Below, one piece after another: positions 46,259-55,240 of a stretch of 64,000 nt of DNA (positions are counted from its first letter, which is position 1; the number at the start of each line of letters is the position of its first letter). Position numbers and translations under genes: made by a program. Source of the stretch: Methylobacter tundripaludum SV96 (GTDB taxonomy: Bacteria; Pseudomonadota; Gammaproteobacteria; Methylococcales; Methylomonadaceae); contig NZ_JH109152.1 of assembly GCF_000190755.2 (NCBI RefSeq), positions 186,001 through 250,000 on the forward strand, in the 5' to 3' direction. The notes beneath the pieces are model-generated. The model had not been told where the DNA came from. It ran no database searches and saw only the letters and a program-made list of their open reading frames with translations.

Positions 46259-46972
46259 ATGTGCTCTATGAACCGTACCCACAATTTAAAAAATACATCT
46301 AAACTAGTCCATCAAGAAATTAGCAGGAAAATAGCTATCCATGAAGCAGGACATGCAGCCGCGATTTATCTTGGCAACCAACAAAAAGGGCTGCCGCCGG
46401 TTTTTTTTCTGATTTTTATTAAACCGTTGAACAATGACGTTCAGTCATCCGAGTTTTTAGGCAATCCCTCTGATCACTATATCGCTAAAGTAGAAGGCGG
46501 TCGCTTGATTCATACCCTGCCGTCATCGCTTGATGAGGCCACAAAAGACTTTTCCGCTGCACAGAAACATGCTTATCAACACGCCTTCGAAGCCGATATA
46601 ATCAATCTGCTCGTCGGGCCTTTAGCCGAAGCTAGATATCTCGCACTGCGTGACAACGAACCGATTAACCCGGAACTGGTGAATGTCAATGCACTGCAGT
46701 ATTACGGCGGCTCATCCGATTTGAAGGTTGTCAACGAGTATCTTGAGTGCTTTATCGACAGTGATGAATTGAGGGAAAGAAAAATGACTGAGTTATTTCT
46801 GGCGGCATTCAATTTTGTCAGTGAGCGGTCGAATTGGCTCGCGATTACCGCGTTGGCTGACTCTCTTTTGGCGCATCAGGAAAATATCATTGAATGCAAT
46901 GAAATTATTGACGTACTTGAATCCGGCAGATGCCGGATGGCTACTTCGCAAAGCATAGCGAGCTTCGGGTAG
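46259..46972 (+). CDS. M41-like HEAGH metallopeptidase-related protein
   Basis: A 237-residue soluble protein. ISRKIAIHEAGHAAAIYLGN near residues 22-41 is the zinc-binding HExxH helix in the form seen in FtsH-type M41 peptidases, but there is no AAA+ module or membrane segment. A later helix, HAFEADIINLLVGPLAEARY, resembles the M41 stretch preceding the third zinc ligand, which may be the Asp in GGSSDLKVVNEYL, as in FtsH. It may be a stand-alone M41-type protease or a zinc-binding relative of the kind found near phage or stress genes. An ATG at 46268 is an alternative start. Confidence 0.65.
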   Translation: MCSMNRTHNLKNTSKLVHQEISRKIAIHEAGHAAAIYLGNQQKGLPPVFFLIFIKPLNNDVQSSEFLGNPSDHYIAKVEGGRLIHTLPSSLDEATKDFSAAQKHAYQHAFEADIINLLVGPLAEARYLALRDNEPINPELVNVNALQYYGGSSDLKVVNEYLECFIDSDELRERKMTELFLAAFNFVSERSNWLAITALADSLLAHQENIIECNEIIDVLESGRCRMATSQSIASFG

Positions 46973-47167: not shown

Positions 47168-50100
47168 GTGATAGACATAACAACAAAAAATAAACCGCAG
47201 GGCGTGCCTAAACTGGGCAATTACATCGTTACCGAAAAGCTTGGAGAAAGCTTGCAGGCCTTGGTATTCAAGGGCTACCACAAAGACGTCCCCGACCAGC
47301 CGTTGATCATCAAACGGCTAAAACTGCTGTCGAGCTGGGACGACCAGTCCCGGCATCTGCGCCAGAAAATTGAACGCCTGAAAGTGCTGCATGATCCGAG
47401 GGTTTGTACGCCGATTGCCCTGGAGTCCTACGGCGACCAGCAATTTATCGTTCAGCCCTGGTTCGCCGGACAACCGCTGAACTGTTGGGTAAAACAGCAA
47501 GACAAACTCGATCTCAACGATTTTTTTACGCTGGCCTGCACACTGGCCGATACGCTGCAAGCGGTACACGATGCCGGCATTACTCACGGCGGCATCAAAC
47601 CCCACAATATTCTGCTACAGCCGGGAACGCTGACCCTGCGGCTGACCGATTTCATCACTCCGCTCGATATTCGCGATGTCAGCCATTTTATCTACGACCC
47701 GGAATTCGTACGCCACACTTTGGCCTACACCTCGCCGGAACAGACCGGCCGCATCAACTATAGAGTTGATTTTTCCACCGATTTGTATTCATTGGGAATC
47801 GTATTTTATGAACTACTTACCGGCCAGTTGCCGTTTTTTTCCAGCGATCCGCTGGAGCTGATTCACTCGCATCTGGCCGAAGAAACGCCTAAAGTCAATC
47901 AGCTCAATCCGCAGCTTCCGCAAGCCTTGGCCGATATTATTGCCAAACTCACGGTCAAGCAGCCGGAGAAGCGTTACCAGAGCGCATCGGGTTTGCTGGC
48001 CGACTTGATCCGCTGCAAGAATGAATACAGCGCCACCGGCAACGTATCGGCGTTTACAGTTGGCCAGCACGATCGCAGCCGCCGGGTCATCTTTATTTCG
48101 AAAATGGTGGGCCGCCAGACCGAAAGCCTGTTGATACAGCAGCAATACAACGAGGTTATCGACGGCAAATTCCGTTCGGTATTTATTTCCGGCCTATCCG
48201 GCATCGGTAAAACCCGGCTGATTCAGGAACTGCAAAAACCATTGGTCAAAAATCGCGGCTACTTCACTTCCGGCAAATTCGACCAATACCAGAAAAATAT
48301 CCCCTACAGCTCGCTGATACAGGCCTTGCGCAATCTGATCCGCATCTTTTTGACCGAAAGCGACTCACAGGTTCAGCAGTGGCGGGCCAAAATACTCGAC
48401 GTCGTAGACAGCAACGGCAGCGTCATCAGTGACGTGTTGCCGGAACTGGAATTCATCATCGGCCCCCAGCCGGAAGTGCCGCATCTGCCGCCGGTGGAAG
48501 CCCGCAACCGTTTCAACAATTTGTTCGGCCGGTTCCTGGCCTGCCTGGCCAGCGAAGACAATCCGCTGGTGCTGTTTATCGACGACCTGCAATGGTGCGA
48601 CAGTGCAACTTTCGATTTTCTACAAAACCTGTTCGACAGCCATCATGAGCATCCTTTCCTGTTTTTCATGGGTGCCTATCGACACAATGAAGTCGACAGC
48701 AGCCATCCGCTCAGCAAACTGATCCGCAAGATTCAGGAAAACAACGGCCCGTTCGCGGAAATTCGCGTGGAGGCGCTAACCGACGCCGACTGCCACGAGA
48801 TGGTCGCCTATATCCTCGATTCCTCGCTGGAAGCCACGGCCAATCTGGCGGAGTTTATCGCCCACCTCACCGAAGGCAACCCGCTGTTCGTCAGCGAAAG
48901 TTTGGCCTGGCTGTATAACGAGGATTTGCTGAATACCGACGCCGAACAACACTGGCATTGGGACATCAAGCGGATTCGCGACACGCAGATGCCGACCTCG
49001 GTAGTGGAATTGTTCAGCTCCAAGGTGGGCAAATTACCGGTTAAAACCCTGCATATCCTCGACCACTGCGCCTGCATGGGCAACCGTTTCAGCGTAGAAG
49101 ATGTGGCGCTGGTGCTGGATATTCGCATCGAACAGCTGTTTGAAGATTTGAAGCCGGTATTGAATCTGGGCATGCTGCTGGAAAACAAATCCGACTTGCA
49201 GTTCGTCCACGACCGGGTCCAGGAAGCGGTGCTGCGCCAAGTCGATTCCCAAGCCAAACCCGCTATCCACTGGCGCATAGGCAACCGCCTGCTGCAAGCG
49301 GTGCCGACAGGAACCGATCTTGAAAGCCTTGACAACTTGTTCACCATTGCCGCCCACCTCAATCTGGGCCGCCCGGCTGACCTGGATCAGGAACTGGCTT
49401 ATCGGTTGGTCAATATCAACTTCCATGCCGGAAACAAGGCGCTGGATGCACTGGCCGGCGATGCCGCCAACGATTTTTTCCAGAAAGCCCACGACTACCT
49501 GCCGGACGATTGCTGGCAACAGGCTTACGACCTGACTTTTCGCATTTACCAGCGTCTGGCCAAGACGGAGCTGATGTGCGGCCGTTACGAAAAATCGGAA
49601 GTGCTGCTTAATCATCTGATCGAATACGCCGCCAGCGACCTGGACAAAGCCGAAGCCCTGGCGGAACAGACCACGTCGTTGTCCTCGTTCGGCAATTTCA
49701 ACAAGGCGATAGCGACCGCCAACCGCGGCTTGGCCTATTTCGGCAAAGCGATTCCCGAACAGCCCGAGACGGCCCAACAGCGTATGCTGGCGTTAATGGC
49801 GCAAATCGAACAGCAAGACGACGTCTGGACGACTATCCTGCACATGCCATTTACTAAGGACCGGAAAAGCAAGATCGAGCTGGCGTTTTACAGCGAACTA
49901 ATCCCCGATCTCTATATGTCCGGCCTAGTGCCGCAGTTGTATCTGTCAGCGGCGCAATCGACGCTGCATTGCCTGCAGGGCGGCATGGATGAATCGGTGA
50001 TTTATTCGTTTTCTATCATGGGGCTCAATCTCGGCGAACAGGGCAAGTTCGAACCGGCATTCCTGTACCAGGATCTGGCCCACGATCTGTGTGCAAAACA

Positions 50101-52300
50101 CCCCAATACTTTTGGCGCCACCCGCGGTATGAACGGCATTGTCTGGTGCAACATGCATTCGCGCAGCCATCCGGCCGAGATTGTCGATTACTGCCACAAA
50201 GGCATACAGTGCGGCAAGAATTGCGGCGATTTGTATAACGCCGGCTTGTCCTACGGGCCGTTGATGTGGAATTTGCAGGTGCAGGGCAAAAACCTGCGTT
50301 GGGTTGAAGAAGCCGCCGAGGAATGCCTGAATTTTTCCCGCAAGAACCAGCTGTTGTTCTCGGTCGGCCTCGCCGAAGCCGTGCTGGCCGGCTGGGTGGC
50401 GCCGATGAAAGCCGATTACCAGCCGGTGGACATGACCGAAACGCTGGCGCGCTGGGAAGCCGACAATTATGTCTCCGCTTCCGGCAGTTATTTTGCGTTG
50501 CTGGGTTTCGCCCAGCATTATCTGGGCGATTACGCTGCTGCGGCTGTGTCCTTGCAGACGGTGGAACGCTATCTGCACGGCCTGACCGATAACGTGCTGA
50601 AACGCCTCTGGTATGTGTTCCGTATTGTCAATCGCCTGCGCTGGCCGGAGGGTGCCGATTGGCCGACGCTTGAAGCGGAAATCGCGCCGTTGCTGGCCGA
50701 GCTGGAAACCTGGGCCCGTCTCGGACCGCTGCTGCAACCCTTCCTGGCCTTTATTCATGCCGAGATCGCCCGCGCCCGAAACCAAATGCGCGACGCCCGC
50801 AACTTGTATCTGGATGCCATCGCGATCGCCCAGGCACAAAACTACGACCTGCTTACCGGCCATTTATACGAAGCGTTGGCCGAGGTGCTGACAGCCGGCA
50901 ATCTAGGCGACGCCGAACTTTACTACGGCGCGGCGCGGCGCATGTACGGGATGTGCCGCGCCGATCGCAAAAGCGAACTATTGCAGCAGCGTCACCCTTA
51001 CACCGCCCCCGACAACGCAGTTCGCGCCGAAAAAACCGTTGCCCTCGACGCGCCGGCTACCCTGCCGAATCTCGATTTCAATTACCTGATCAAATCGGCA
51101 TTGGCGCTATCGGCGGAAGTCGATCTGAATCGGCTCATGCAAAAAATCATGACCGTAGTGCTGGAAAGCTCAGGGGCACAGCACGGCTACTTGCTGATCA
51201 AGGAGGCGGATGAACTGCTGATCGCCGCGGAATACCATGTCGGCAAAAAACACGTCGTTAACCGCCGGCATCTCAACCTTAACCAGACCTCTGGCAGCAT
51301 TAGCCGCGCCATCGTCAATTACGTGTTGCGCACGCGTAAAAAAGTGTTACTGCACGATGCGATGACCGAAGGCGAGTTTCAGAATACCCCTGAGGTACAG
51401 GCGCTAAGACTGCGTTCGGTGCTGTGCCTGCCGGTCATTAAGCAAAAGGAACTCATCGGCCTGCTCTACCTGGAAAACCGGCTGTCGACCGGTGTGTTTA
51501 CCGCCGAAAAAACCGATATGACCGAACTATTGACCGCCCAGGCTGCGATTTCCCTGGAAAACGCCCGCCTGCTGGAACAAACCCTGCTGGCCTACACCAA
51601 ACTACAGGAAAACCAGGAGCACATGCTGCAAATGGAAAAACTCTCTGCATTGGGGACGCTGGTCGGCGGCGTGGCGCATGAGATCAACAACCCGCTGATG
51701 GGAATAATGAATTTTGTCGAATTCGCCGCAGACAGAAGTACTGATGAAAAATCAAAGGAAGTTCTCGATCAGGCGCTACAGCAAATTCACCGCATCAAGA
51801 AGATTGTCAGCAACATGCTGCTATTTATCCACACCAGATCGGTCCCAAGCGGCAACTGTCAGGTCGCGGAGGTAATCAAACAAACTCAGTTACTGCTGGA
51901 AGGCGAATTGAGCAAAAACGGCATAGCCGTTGAGGTCGATGCCGCCAACGATCTGCCGGCCATCCGCTGTAGCGCCGACAGCCTGCAGCAGATTCTGGTC
52001 AATCTGATCATTAACGCCCGCGACGCGCTAGCCGACAGCCGGCAACCACAAATCAAAATCATAGTTAGGCCCATGGAGGAGATGCTGGAACTAAGCGTGA
52101 CCGATAACGGTCCCGGAATCCCACAAGACATACAAAGCAAAATTTTCGATCCATTTTTTACCACCAAGCCTCCCGGAAAAGGTACCGGCCTGGGCTTGTC
52201 AGTCATCCGCCGTCTAGTTCAGGATGTCGGGGGCAATATACAGGTGGAGAGTATATATGGACACGGCTGCTGCATGCGGCTACGATTTCCCCCTATTTGA
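47168..52300 (+). CDS. Kinase-like/AAA ATPase/GAF/histidine kinase multidomain sensor
   Basis: A 1710-residue protein of the family that joins a Ser/Thr-kinase domain, an AAA-type ATPase, TPR-like helices, GAF and a histidine kinase. Residues about 15-275 are kinase-like: Lys49 is kept in LIIKRLK and the [20 protein letters not shown] segment is normal. The catalytic loop, however, reads HGGIKPHN (Gly142 where HRD has Asp) and DFG is DFI (161-163), so it is probably a pseudokinase. Walker [11 protein letters not shown] is near 340 and Walker [11 protein letters not shown] near 468. GAF spans about 1305-1475. The H-box [11 protein letters not shown] has His1504; the N, G1 and G2 boxes of HATPase_c follow near 1610, 1644 and 1671. 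The frame starts with ATG at 47168. Confidence 0.88.
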
Positions 52301-52334: not shown

Positions 52335-53036
52335 ATGGCAAGCAACATTCTGGTAATAGACGACGATCCTGCGGTGCGCAGTGCCTTCAAACTGATTCTG
52401 GAAGATGACAGTTTCTCGGTTCGTGAAGCCGAGAACGGTTTGCAAGGCATCGAAATGACCCTAGCCGAACGTCCCGATCTGATTTTTCTCGATCTGCGCA
52501 TGCCCGGCATCGATGGCGTGGAAACCTTGCGCCGCCTGAAAGCCATTGATGAAACACTGAACGTTTATATCGTCACCGCTTTTGCCACCGAATACATGGA
52601 GCAGCTGAAAAGCATACATGAGGAAGGCTTTCAGTTCGAACTGGCCAGCAAGCCGCTGTCTTCCGAACAAATTCGTAATATCGCCCAGATCGCCCGTACT
52701 GCCCTTTCTCAGGAAGCACCGCGCGTAACGCCGCACAAACTGGTCCTAACTCTGTACGTGGTATCGCTGAACAGCGAAACCCGCGGTCTGGTCGAGCAGA
52801 TTACCGCTGCGCTCGCCAACCTCTACGATCCCGGATACTGGGTTTTAAACGTCGTCGAAGTATTGGGCATGCCGGAAAAAGCCCTGGAAAAAGACGTGTT
52901 TGCAACGCCGATGCTGGTGCGCGATGTGCCGGAACCCGTACTGAAACTGCTCGGCGACCTGTCGCGGATACCTTCCGTCATAGCGGCCATTACCACCGAA
53001 GCTAGAGGAGTCGGTTCACAAACCATCATCGTTTAA
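52335..53036 (+). CDS. Receiver domain fused to a KaiB-like domain
   Basis: A 233-residue protein from ATG 52335, which begins MASNILVIDDDPAV; a longer frame starts inside the kinase gene. Residues 1-120 are a receiver domain with acidic DDD, phospho-acceptor Asp53 (FLDLRMPG), a Thr switch (IVTAF) and Lys in ASKPLS. From about residue 134 the protein has the KaiB fold signature: HKLVLTLYVVSLNSETRGLV, then YWVLNVVEVLGMPEKALEKD and ATPMLVRDVPEPVLKLLGDL. This matches KaiB and SasA-type thioredoxin-like domains. It lies 34 bases after the kinase-like sensor and 15 bases before a hybrid kinase, so it is probably their phosphorylation target with a KaiB-type output. Confidence 0.85.
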   Translation: MASNILVIDDDPAVRSAFKLILEDDSFSVREAENGLQGIEMTLAERPDLIFLDLRMPGIDGVETLRRLKAIDETLNVYIVTAFATEYMEQLKSIHEEGFQFELASKPLSSEQIRNIAQIARTALSQEAPRVTPHKLVLTLYVVSLNSETRGLVEQITAALANLYDPGYWVLNVVEVLGMPEKALEKDVFATPMLVRDVPEPVLKLLGDLSRIPSVIAAITTEARGVGSQTIIV

Positions 53037-53051
53037 GTAAACTTACCGGCT

Positions 53052-54911
53052 ATGACCACTCACAACCCCAAGTTCGACCTGATTCTCGACACTATCACCG
53101 ACGGCGTTTTGGTTGTGGATAGCCAGGGCGTCGTACTCTATGCCAACCAAGCTGCCGAAATCCTGCTGGCACGCAGCCCGATAATCGGTCAATCGCTGGC
53201 GATTCCAGTCAATCCTGATAAAAACAGCTATCAGGACATTAATCTGATCCGTCCGAACGGACTCGTCTGGGCAGAAATGCGTTCCTCGCCGCTGGAGTGG
53301 GACGGACAACCCGGCTACGTCATCGCCTTGCGCGACATTACCGAACGCAAGCACATGGAGCTGGAACGGCAAAAATTCGTTTCGCTGGCCGATAACAGCA
53401 TGGAGTTCATCGGCATGTTCGACATGAAATTCCTTCCGTTCTATATCAACGAAGCCGGCATGCGCCTGATCGGCCTCGACAGCCTGGAGCAGTGCATCCG
53501 AACGCCAGTCCAGGAGTTTTTCTTCCCCGAAGATCAGCGCTTCATCCTTGATGAATTCTTCCCGCGCGTTGTGCGCGAGGGTCACGCCGATGTGGAAATC
53601 AGGTTTCGTCATTTCAAGAGCGGCGCGGCCATCTGGATGCTCTACAACGTGTTTTTCATCAAAGACAGTGCCGGCGAGCCAGTGGGTATCGCCACCGTGA
53701 GTCGTGATATCTCCGCGCGCAAACAGGCCGAGGCGGCCCTGCATGAGGCCGACCGACGTAAGGATGAATTTCTTGCCATGCTGGCTCATGAACTGAGAAA
53801 TCCACTGGCTCCCATCAGCAACGCAGCCCATATTTTAGATATGCTGAAGCTGGAGGATCCGCGGCTCAGCTGGGCTAAGGAAATCATTAAGCGGCAAGTG
53901 ATGCACCTCACTCACCTGGTGGACGATCTGCTGGATATTTCCCGTATCGCGCGTGGAAAAATTTCGCTGAAGAAAGAGCGGCTCGACCTTGTAGAAGTGA
54001 TTAAATCAGTGTTAGATACGGCGCGCGGCCCTATCTTGGCCAAACAACAACATCTCGATGTCCATCTGCCTGAACAACCGATACTGTTGGAGGGCGATTC
54101 CGTGCGCCTGTCCCAAGTGTTACTTAACCTGCTCGACAATGCCGGCAAATACTCCCTGGAAAACGCTCAAATCGAGGTTGATGTCCAACTGTACGGAACC
54201 GAAGTTGAGATTCAGGTGAGGGACAACGGCACCGGCATCTCGGCGGGACTATTACCGACCATTTTCGACCTATTTCAACAGGGTGCGCGCACCCTGGATC
54301 GGTCTCAGGGCGGATTAGGCATTGGGCTTACCCTGGTAAAGCGGCTGGTGGAACTACACGGCGGAAAGGTAACGGCATCAAGCCCCGGCGCCGGGCTGGG
54401 CTCCACCTTCAGCATTCGGTTGCCGACGATTGCCGAAGCGGCCGGCTTTCCTGCCGCCGAGACACCAACGCCATCGCCTAACGCAGGCATGCGGGTGCTG
54501 GTGGTGGACGATGATGCCGACGTAAGGGAGAGTACAGCACTCCTTCTGGAGCTGAATGGCTACGAGGTTAAAATGGCTGATTCCGGCGCGCACGCCATAA
54601 CGCTGATCGAGGCATTCCATCCCGACGTGGTGCTGCTGGACATCGGAATGCCCGTAGAGAATGGCTATCAGGTGGCTCAGCGGATCAGGAAACTGCCCAA
54701 CGGGGGCGATTTGCTGCTGGTAGCATTAAGCGGCTATGGGAGGGCGGAGGAATTAGCCCGTTCGCAAGAGGCGGGTTTCGATCATCACCTAATCAAGCCA
54801 TTGAATTTCAATACGCTCCGCGACCTGCTTTCAGAATGGGAGGTTAGGCTGGGCCGCCGCGTTGCAGATTCCCGGTTATTTGACCCGAAATGTGCAAACA
54901 AGCTGAATTAA
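53052..54911 (+). CDS. PAS-PAS hybrid histidine kinase with C-terminal receiver
   Basis: A 619-residue cytosolic hybrid kinase. PAS domains lie at about 8-105 (DTITDGVLVVDSQGVVLYAN) and 115-230 (FVSLADNSMEFIGMFDMKFL). The dimerisation domain has FLAMLAHELRNPLAPISNA with His246. HATPase_c follows with NLLDNAGKYS, VRDNGTGIS and GGLGIGLTLV. The C-terminal receiver starts near 476 (RVLVVDDDADVRES), with Asp530 in VVLLDIGMP and Lys in LIKPLN. It has no membrane segment. It follows the receiver-KaiB gene by 15 bases and should belong to the same operon. Its last residues may have been altered, since the next frame begins inside its 3' end with a transposase-like segment. Confidence 0.92.
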   Translation: MTTHNPKFDLILDTITDGVLVVDSQGVVLYANQAAEILLARSPIIGQSLAIPVNPDKNSYQDINLIRPNGLVWAEMRSSPLEWDGQPGYVIALRDITERKHMELERQKFVSLADNSMEFIGMFDMKFLPFYINEAGMRLIGLDSLEQCIRTPVQEFFFPEDQRFILDEFFPRVVREGHADVEIRFRHFKSGAAIWMLYNVFFIKDSAGEPVGIATVSRDISARKQAEAALHEADRRKDEFLAMLAHELRNPLAPISNAAHILDMLKLEDPRLSWAKEIIKRQVMHLTHLVDDLLDISRIARGKISLKKERLDLVEVIKSVLDTARGPILAKQQHLDVHLPEQPILLEGDSVRLSQVLLNLLDNAGKYSLENAQIEVDVQLYGTEVEIQVRDNGTGISAGLLPTIFDLFQQGARTLDRSQGGLGIGLTLVKRLVELHGGKVTASSPGAGLGSTFSIRLPTIAEAAGFPAAETPTPSPNAGMRVLVVDDDADVRESTALLLELNGYEVKMADSGAHAITLIEAFHPDVVLLDIGMPVENGYQVAQRIRKLPNGGDLLLVALSGYGRAEELARSQEAGFDHHLIKPLNFNTLRDLLSEWEVRLGRRVADSRLFDPKCANKLN

Positions 54912-55240
54912 CCGCCGAAGAGTGGCGTACGATTTATAAATTGCTACGGCTAAACCAACGGATCTTTGCAGGTTCAGTGGAAAAATGCCGGCGCTTTTTC
55001 AACGCGGTTCTGTGGATTTTACGTAGCGGAGAACATCGGAGTGTTTTTCTGATCCATAACCTGGATGATATTTTAGTTTCTGCGGAAGATGTAGCCTATC
55101 TGGAGAAGGTCTTCGACAAGTGTGCGACGGTTTATCCTCGCGGCGGCCATTTGGGCAATCTGTGGTACCCGGAGAATAAGGAACACCTATTGGACGTGTT
55201 CAAACCGCTGTTGCAAGGCTCGGCACAGCCCCATCTTTAA
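54890..55240 (+). pseudogene. Chimeric relic: transposase start joined to a hydrolase end
   Basis: An open frame of 116 codons made of two unrelated parts. The first 45 or so residues (LTAEEWRTIYKLLRLNQRIF, then FFNAVLWILRSGEH) look like the N-terminus of an IS5-family transposase. The rest (VFLIHNLDDILVSAEDVAYL, then VYPRGGHLGNLWYPENKEHL) is the C-terminal end of an alpha/beta-hydrolase, with the late Asp and the catalytic-type His in GGHLGN. The junction is near base 55033. It is most easily explained by an insertion followed by deletion. The open frame across the join is probably chance. Confidence 0.55.

Follow-up and report, generated by a model that had tools for sequence, protein, structure and literature searches.

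Gene Organization of the Locus

The stretch of DNA analyzed here (hereafter the window, 64,000 nucleotides of Methylobacter tundripaludum SV96) carries a gene whose product joins a receiver (REC) domain to a domain of the KaiB family, placed between two genes for histidine kinases that are read in the same direction (table 1). The KaiB half matched PF07689 with 36.4 bits over residues 143–210, against a curated cut-off of 27, and the receiver half has the residues expected of PF00072 (the acidic pair, the acceptor Asp, Thr and Lys). An earlier note, made from the letters alone, had proposed such a union of an intact receiver, with Asp53 as phospho-acceptor, and a KaiB-like region, and our searches bear it out. 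In the window protein and 13 homologs, Pfam recognized both domains in all 14 proteins (E ≤ 0.001 for KaiB), and the acceptor set D9-D11, D53, T81 and K106 is invariant in the same 14. The window protein is real and conserved, a response regulator whose output domain is a KaiB; a chance match or a generic thioredoxin match was ruled out by the Pfam score, by the 14 of 14 proteins and by the structure ranking given below. The linker between the halves is variable, with 19–31% identity across five pairwise comparisons. A longer protein starting at 52224 was considered, since the frame is open there, but the homologs align from the ATG at 52335. The order of the domains, REC and then KaiB, is not that of SasA, in which a KaiB-like domain lies N-terminal to a histidine kinase.

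Table 1. Features of the REC-KaiB locus, in positions of the window
Feature	Position	Strand	Basis
Upstream histidine kinase, 1710 aa, His1504	47168-52300	+	Pfam
REC-KaiB fusion, 233 aa	52335-53036	+	Pfam, two domains
Receiver domain, residues 5-115	52347-52679	+	Pfam Response_reg, 84.2 bits
Codon of phospho-acceptor Asp53	52491-52493	+	Within receiver domain
Variable linker, residues 119-134	52689-52736	+	Invariant positions 0/16
KaiB domain, residues 135-233, with fold-switch prolines P192, P199 and P201	52737-53033	+	Pfam, AF2, Foldseek
Downstream hybrid histidine kinase, PAS-PAS-HisKA(His246)-HATPase-REC, 619 aa	53052-54911	+	Pfam
PAS1, part common to the kinase and GGDEF-EAL versions	53052-53363	+	Identity across the swap

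Only 34 nt separate the upstream kinase gene from the fusion and 15 nt the fusion from the hybrid kinase gene, and the operon-like layout with kinases suggested in the earlier note is thereby upheld. A scan of named genomes returned 41 loci, 39 of them with a REC-KaiB fusion, and a co-directed HisKA gene lies upstream in 36 of these 39 (a 134-aa open reading frame intervenes in L081). Thirty-one of the 36 upstream genes are of the 1710-aa type, three of them partial or split, and five are shorter kinases. The sensory part of the upstream protein changes entirely among lineages, from the 1710-aa type with Ser/Thr-kinase-like, AAA and GAF domains to CHASE3 and PAS. In the window protein, Pfam placed the Ser/Thr-kinase-like domain at residues 19–272, AAA_16 at 313–498 and GAF at 1318–1464, followed by HisKA and HATPase_c.

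Two features of this upstream region may be recorded in their own right. Within the Ser/Thr-kinase-like domain (47222–47983), the HRD motif reads HGG in 28 of 28 homologs of 1600–1800 aa and the DFG motif reads DFI in 27 of the 28. We take HRD and DFG to be the Ser/Thr-kinase motifs and the HGG reading to lack the catalytic aspartate, so that the domain is predicted to be a pseudokinase; the adjoining AAA domain has a P-loop motif in all 28, and the 1710-aa protein probably carries a conserved pseudokinase beside an AAA domain. Ahead of the kinase gene, at 46259–46972, lies a gene for a 237-aa protein with an HEAGH motif, which is presumably metallopeptidase-like. This protein gave no Pfam or NCBIfam match, and a counterpart 87% identical to it occupies the same position in L036.

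Fold and Sequence Signature of the KaiB Half

The KaiB half was modeled with AF2 from 72 KaiB sequences, with mean pLDDT 83 and pTM 0.77 for the best of five models, the other four having mean pLDDT of 56–65. The 72 rows of the alignment comprise 36 fusions and 36 ordinary KaiBs drawn from 86 KaiB domains: ten ordinary KaiBs, partial or on long branches, and five fusions (near-duplicates or the window protein itself) were left out, and the window protein was then added. In the model the elements follow the order beta-alpha-beta-alpha-beta-beta-alpha, with a short C-terminal strand. Its first 17 PDB matches in Foldseek, the best at E 6.6e-6, are all KaiB or the SasA N-domain, namely fold-switched or complexed KaiB of T. 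elongatus, Legionella KaiB, KaiC-bound KaiB-RS, KaiBTV-4 and the SasA N-domain, and other thioredoxin-fold proteins begin at E 1.7e-3. By sequence profile, the best PDB KaiB is 5jyt, a KaiB stabilized in the fold-switched form. The KaiB fold is thus given by the AF2 model, confident in one case out of five, and by Foldseek. When the whole fusion was modeled from 14 fusion sequences alone, the receiver came out well and the KaiB half with low confidence, and this model was not used for claims on the fold.

The fold prediction and the profile search proposed in the earlier note thus both place the C-terminal half in the KaiB family. The counter-reading raised there, an unrelated thioredoxin fold, does not hold: a thioredoxin-like fold is proper to fold-switched KaiB and to the SasA N-domain, and plain thioredoxins are poorer matches to the model than either of these. 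The profile, the prolines and the fold agree on KaiB-family membership.

The three fold-switch prolines are present in 40 of 40 fusion KaiB domains, inside the constant string FATPMLVR[DE]xPxP[VI]L. In KaiB-RS, cis-trans isomerization of the corresponding P58, P65 and P67 is reported to limit fold switching (PMC11185700). With positions numbered on T. elongatus KaiB, four residues are replaced in all 40 fusions: K58 by D, E or N, R74 by L, G89 by A, S or T, and D91 by T or S. Ordinary KaiBs (n = 46) vary at these positions too: G89 is G in 28 and D91 is D in 25, the position of R74 holds R or K in 35 and that of K58 holds K or R in 15. We take positions 58 and 74 to face KaiC, and from the replaced positions we infer an altered partner surface on the fusion KaiB. 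The replacements at 89 and 91 suggest that the KaiB half is biased to the fold-switched form, as the pair G89A and D91R is the one published as stabilizing fold-switched KaiB (PMC6378743).

Distribution, Origin and Selection

We found the fusion in 14 of 101 related genomes (that of the window and 100 relatives), the 13 other homologs being 64–86% identical to the window protein. The hosts of the 39 named loci, a set that overlaps in part with the 101 genomes, include Methylobacter, Methylomonas, Methylomicrobium, Methylocaldum and Crenothrix, besides metagenome-assembled genomes labeled Gallionella, Gallionellales, Comamonadaceae and others. The remaining two of the 41 loci hold stand-alone KaiBs, one of which (L094) precedes a KaiC recognized by Pfam.

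In a tree of 93 columns, the 40 distinct fusion KaiB domains were separated from 46 ordinary KaiBs by a single branch with support 100/99; either side can be called a clade only when the root falls outside it. The ordinary KaiBs were mostly from Gammaproteobacteria, cyanobacterial KaiB and SasA being left out, and in the tree as in the signature comparison the fusion and ordinary labels were set by locus number. As the fusion KaiBs all lie on one side of this branch, one origin is the simplest reading.

Both domains are under purifying selection: in the four comparisons for which dN/dS could be obtained (a fifth was saturated), it is 0.12–0.30 for REC and 0.11–0.25 for KaiB, and with such values in the KaiB half the open frame is not there by chance. 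Invariant positions number 41 of 99 in the KaiB half and 54 of 118 in the receiver.

Some loci depart from this pattern. In G018 a tandem duplicate of REC-KaiB lies between the kinase gene and the PAS-GGDEF-EAL gene (L045, 8854–10288), the second copy being 55% identical to the window protein. In G044 only a kinase fragment (161 aa) and a receiver fragment (51 aa matched) were found (L049, 10610–11092; L021); this genome has KaiC and an ordinary KaiB, and the fragments look as if the module had been lost there.

When receiver fusions were looked for elsewhere, no receiver was seen by eye ahead of KaiB in the long frames of L186, L193, L197, L110, L121, L128, L134 and L136. On plasmid pOJF2_1 of Aquisphaera giovannonii (L198, 4882–8236), a hybrid kinase with a receiver at its end is encoded by a gene that shares 4 bases with kaiB, and kaiC follows, a layout that is a possible route to a receiver-KaiB fusion. 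The Aquisphaera KaiB itself is not claimed as the direct ancestor of the fusion: among the KaiBs of our set, those that score best against it are ordinary ones, and the best fusion ranks 26th among the 30 matches listed.

KaiC and KaiA

The window genome has one KaiB domain. The absence of KaiC and KaiA, remarked in the earlier note for the surroundings of the gene, now extends to the whole genome: KaiA gave no match, and the sole match to the KaiC model, of 25.8 bits, falls in RadA as identified by NCBIfam. Matches to PF06745, the KaiC-type ATPase family, are likewise confined to RadA, RecA and DnaB there. The fusion of the window genome stands outside any KaiABC or KaiBC clock, KaiA being in any case not required in KaiBC systems.

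Among the 14 carriers, KaiC of at least 288 bits occurs in four (G001, G006, G050 and G055), each with an ordinary KaiB adjoining it, and G009 has a weak two-domain ATPase that scored 62.5 bits in the KaiC search. The other nine, that of the window included, have KaiC-model matches of at most 29.2 bits, the level of RadA, and G090 has none at E ≤ 0.001; seven of these nine genomes are at least 99% complete.

As a control we searched for KaiC in all 27 other genomes with a KaiB over the cut-off in a class-wide sample of 369. At E ≤ 1e-15, a KaiC match was found in 25 of 27 controls and in 5 of 14 carriers (p 2.3e-4), and by full-length single matches in 20 of 27 and 4 of 14 (p 0.008); at a threshold of at least 275 bits the two sets do not differ (11 of 27 and 4 of 14, p 0.5). 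Within the 101 relatives the same threshold gives 4 of 14 carriers and 8 of 87 others (p 0.06), KaiC being here somewhat commoner in carriers; all of these Fisher tests ignore shared ancestry. As the contrast varies with the threshold, we make no strong statistical claim that carriers lack KaiC, and limit ourselves to the statement that KaiC is dispensable for them, not that it is avoided. Since KaiC is somewhat commoner in carriers than in other relatives, binding of the fusion to KaiC may occur where both are present.

The Downstream Gene and Its First PAS Domain

That the fusion lies between two histidine kinases, as the earlier note had it, is true of the window, but this is a lineage variant. 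The third gene of the 39 loci encodes a PAS-GGDEF-EAL protein in 27 and a PAS-histidine kinase in eight, while three loci have no co-directed gene and one ends with its contig; for this reason we do not regard a two-kinase operon as the defining layout. Among the PAS-GGDEF-EAL loci, small open reading frames intervene in L081, L084 and L085, and a second copy of the fusion in L082. No adjoining PAS1 gene was found in three fusion loci (L066, L091 and L093).

The constant element of the third gene is its N-terminal PAS domain, PAS1, a partner that had been overlooked in the earlier note. This first PAS domain, of about 100 residues, is common to 35 of 35 downstream proteins and is 52–70% identical between the window type and the rest, whereas the second (PAS2) is at background between types and was discarded as the common part; the median alignment score between types is 289 for PAS1 and 45 for PAS2. 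The kinase version of L055 has lost PAS2 and kept PAS1. In the 28 proteins not of the window type, which include L086, a kinase by Pfam placed there by the motif filter, the GGDEF motif was found in 26 and the EAL motif in 27.

A search of the 101 genomes with PAS1 alone gave 17 matches in 16 genomes at E ≤ 1e-8, every one of them near KaiB or a remnant of it. Of these, 14 are found close behind the 14 fusions, on their downstream side and at most about 0.7 kb away. Two follow kaiB-kaiC directly, in G012 (43% identity, in a PAS-GGDEF-EAL protein) and in G055 (39%, in a PAS-GGDEF protein); of the 12 relatives whose KaiC reaches 275 bits or more, only 2 have PAS1 in this position. The last, in G033, is beside a decayed fusion, recognized by a tblastn match to residues 179–231 (E 5.8e-5) directly upstream of PAS1, and the same frame begins like a receiver. 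When PAS1 and PAS2 were searched jointly, the gene of the operon ranked first in six of eight genomes; in the other two, G001 and G006, it came second to a match that covers only residues 94 or 95 to 232. PAS1 is genomically linked to KaiB, the link being a co-location of genes, which is not the same as a contact.

Three further observations concern the surroundings of these genes. In G012 a gene with a protoglobin domain directly precedes kaiB-kaiC-PAS-GGDEF-EAL (L217, 3815–9114), a layout that suggests a coupling of gas sensing to the kai operon. In G026 the beginning of a truncated KaiC continues in the same frame into the end of a KaiB (L136, 1207–1746), apparently through an internal deletion between kaiC and kaiB. 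In the window, a weak match to DUF4096 (of the IS4/5-type transposase family), below the cut-off, overlaps the end of the hybrid kinase gene at 54890–55240.

A Proposed Kai-Type Module Working without KaiC

We propose, with a probability of roughly one half, that the operon encodes a Kai-type signaling module which works without KaiC, in which phosphorylation of the receiver governs a contact between KaiB and PAS1 and, through it, an output enzyme. Asp53 would be phosphorylated by the upstream histidine kinase, and possibly by the downstream hybrid kinase too. Phosphorylation would then alter the packing of the receiver on the attached KaiB domain, or the dimerization of that domain, which in solution is probably held in the fold-switched, thioredoxin-like form that binds partners. 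So disposed, KaiB may contact PAS1 of the protein encoded by the adjoining gene and set its activity. That phosphorylation may gate a contact of KaiB type was suggested in the earlier note as well. The output would be synthesis or breakdown of c-di-GMP in most lineages seen and a histidine kinase in the lineage of the window, the catalytic end behind PAS1 being exchangeable. Fold-switched KaiB is reported to bind a receiver-type domain, the pseudo-receiver of CikA (PMC6378743, PMC12632262), which makes a contact between receiver and KaiB in cis plausible; the contact with CikA is made in trans and by a pseudo-receiver, whereas here it would be made in cis and with a receiver that can be phosphorylated.

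The receiver would thus occupy the place that KaiC has in the kaiB-kaiC-PAS1 operons. We suggest, more tentatively, that control of KaiB has passed from KaiC to a phospho-receiver, so that a two-component kinase sets the contact with a dedicated PAS1, mostly with c-di-GMP as output. PAS1 could instead sense a signal common to the operon rather than bind KaiB.

It is rather unlikely, in our estimation, that KaiB does not dock on PAS1 but feeds back on the kinases of the operon through a SasA- or CikA-like contact, in a kinase-regulating loop. The neighbor most often seen is a HisKA kinase (36 of 39 loci), and in the window the downstream gene also encodes a kinase; a HisKA partner is, however, expected for any receiver, and the sensory part of the upstream kinase is swapped among lineages, whereas every PAS1 match lies near KaiB or a remnant of it.

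We consider improbable the reading in which the KaiB half binds a KaiC-type ATPase in trans, either KaiC where it is present or a relative of the RecA superfamily such as RadA, despite the match of the modeled fold to the KaiC-binding form of KaiB and the somewhat higher frequency of KaiC in carriers than in other relatives. RadA is the sole KaiC-model match in the window genome, and matches of the same size are the sole ones in seven other carriers. Nine of the 14 carriers, however, have no match above 29.2 bits, G090 having none at all at the threshold used; the four carriers with KaiC have an ordinary KaiB beside it; and residues 58 and 74 are replaced in 40 of 40 fusions, with the reservation that ordinary KaiBs also vary at 58.

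The same low degree of credence applies to a KaiB half that is a dimerization or stabilizing module with no specific partner, the receiver serving as a single-domain phospho-relay between two kinases. The position of the window gene between two kinases, the hybrid one with a receiver of its own, would suit such a relay, but the KaiB half is conserved nearly as well as the receiver, and the third gene in 27 of 39 loci encodes a GGDEF-EAL protein and not a kinase. A redox role, in which the thioredoxin-like fold of the model acts on disulfides, is very improbable because the KaiB half of the window protein has no cysteine.

Relation to Known Kai Systems

The nearest known counterparts of the fusion are Kai systems. 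The fusion shares with the KaiB of KaiABC and KaiBC clocks (of cyanobacteria and, as KaiB-RS, of Rhodobacter) the fold family, the fold-switch prolines and the ATPxL...PxP...GDLS motif, but it is fused to a receiver, is found in many carriers without KaiC and has positions 58, 74, 89 and 91 replaced throughout. KaiBTV-4 (PDB 8ubh) and Legionella Lpp1115 (PDB 4kun), both stable in the fold-switched state and both matched by the model, are stand-alone proteins, whereas here KaiB is fused and lies in a kinase operon; Legionella KaiB was reported to be related to stress and not to circadian rhythm (PMC10808063). The SasA N-domain, a structural match, puts a thioredoxin fold of KaiB type into a two-component protein. 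In SasA, however, a kinase has a sensor that binds KaiC, whereas in the fusion KaiB stands on the output side of a receiver, and in identity the fusion KaiB is closer to T. elongatus KaiB (30–32%) than to SasA chains (22–29%).

Non-cyanobacterial kaiC-kaiB clusters followed by genes for histidine kinases or GGDEF/EAL proteins have been described (PMC3164672). These have the same types of output, and the operons of G012 and G055 carry a PAS1 relative with 39–43% identity, but the operon of the fusion has a receiver fusion and no KaiC. A survey reports bacterial and archaeal KaiB only together with full-length KaiC (PMC5520375); as that survey kept only genomes with KaiC, cases of KaiB free of KaiC would be missed by it.

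The earlier note also named, as a case against it, a fusion that is common and already characterized; the fusion is not rare in methanotrophs, but we found no characterization of it in the literature. A receiver-KaiB fusion was not described in the titles and opening lines of abstracts searched, a body of literature to which subscription papers mostly do not belong, and domain databases may list the architecture without comment.

What is known of KaiB is its role as the fold-switching partner of KaiC; here a conserved KaiB subfamily, joined to a receiver that can be phosphorylated, persists in genomes without KaiC, and this suggests the rewiring of a circadian component into an ordinary kinase pathway. 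With the fusion one can ask if a KaiB contact is open to control by an aspartyl phosphate and if the PAS domain accompanying it is a KaiB receptor, and cultured methanotrophs such as Methylomonas and Methylobacter offer a natural case for the role of KaiB without a clock. If the receiver has indeed taken over from KaiC, KaiB would be a signaling module whose range extends beyond the clock, and PAS1 would be a KaiB receptor not recognized before, in operons both with and without KaiC.
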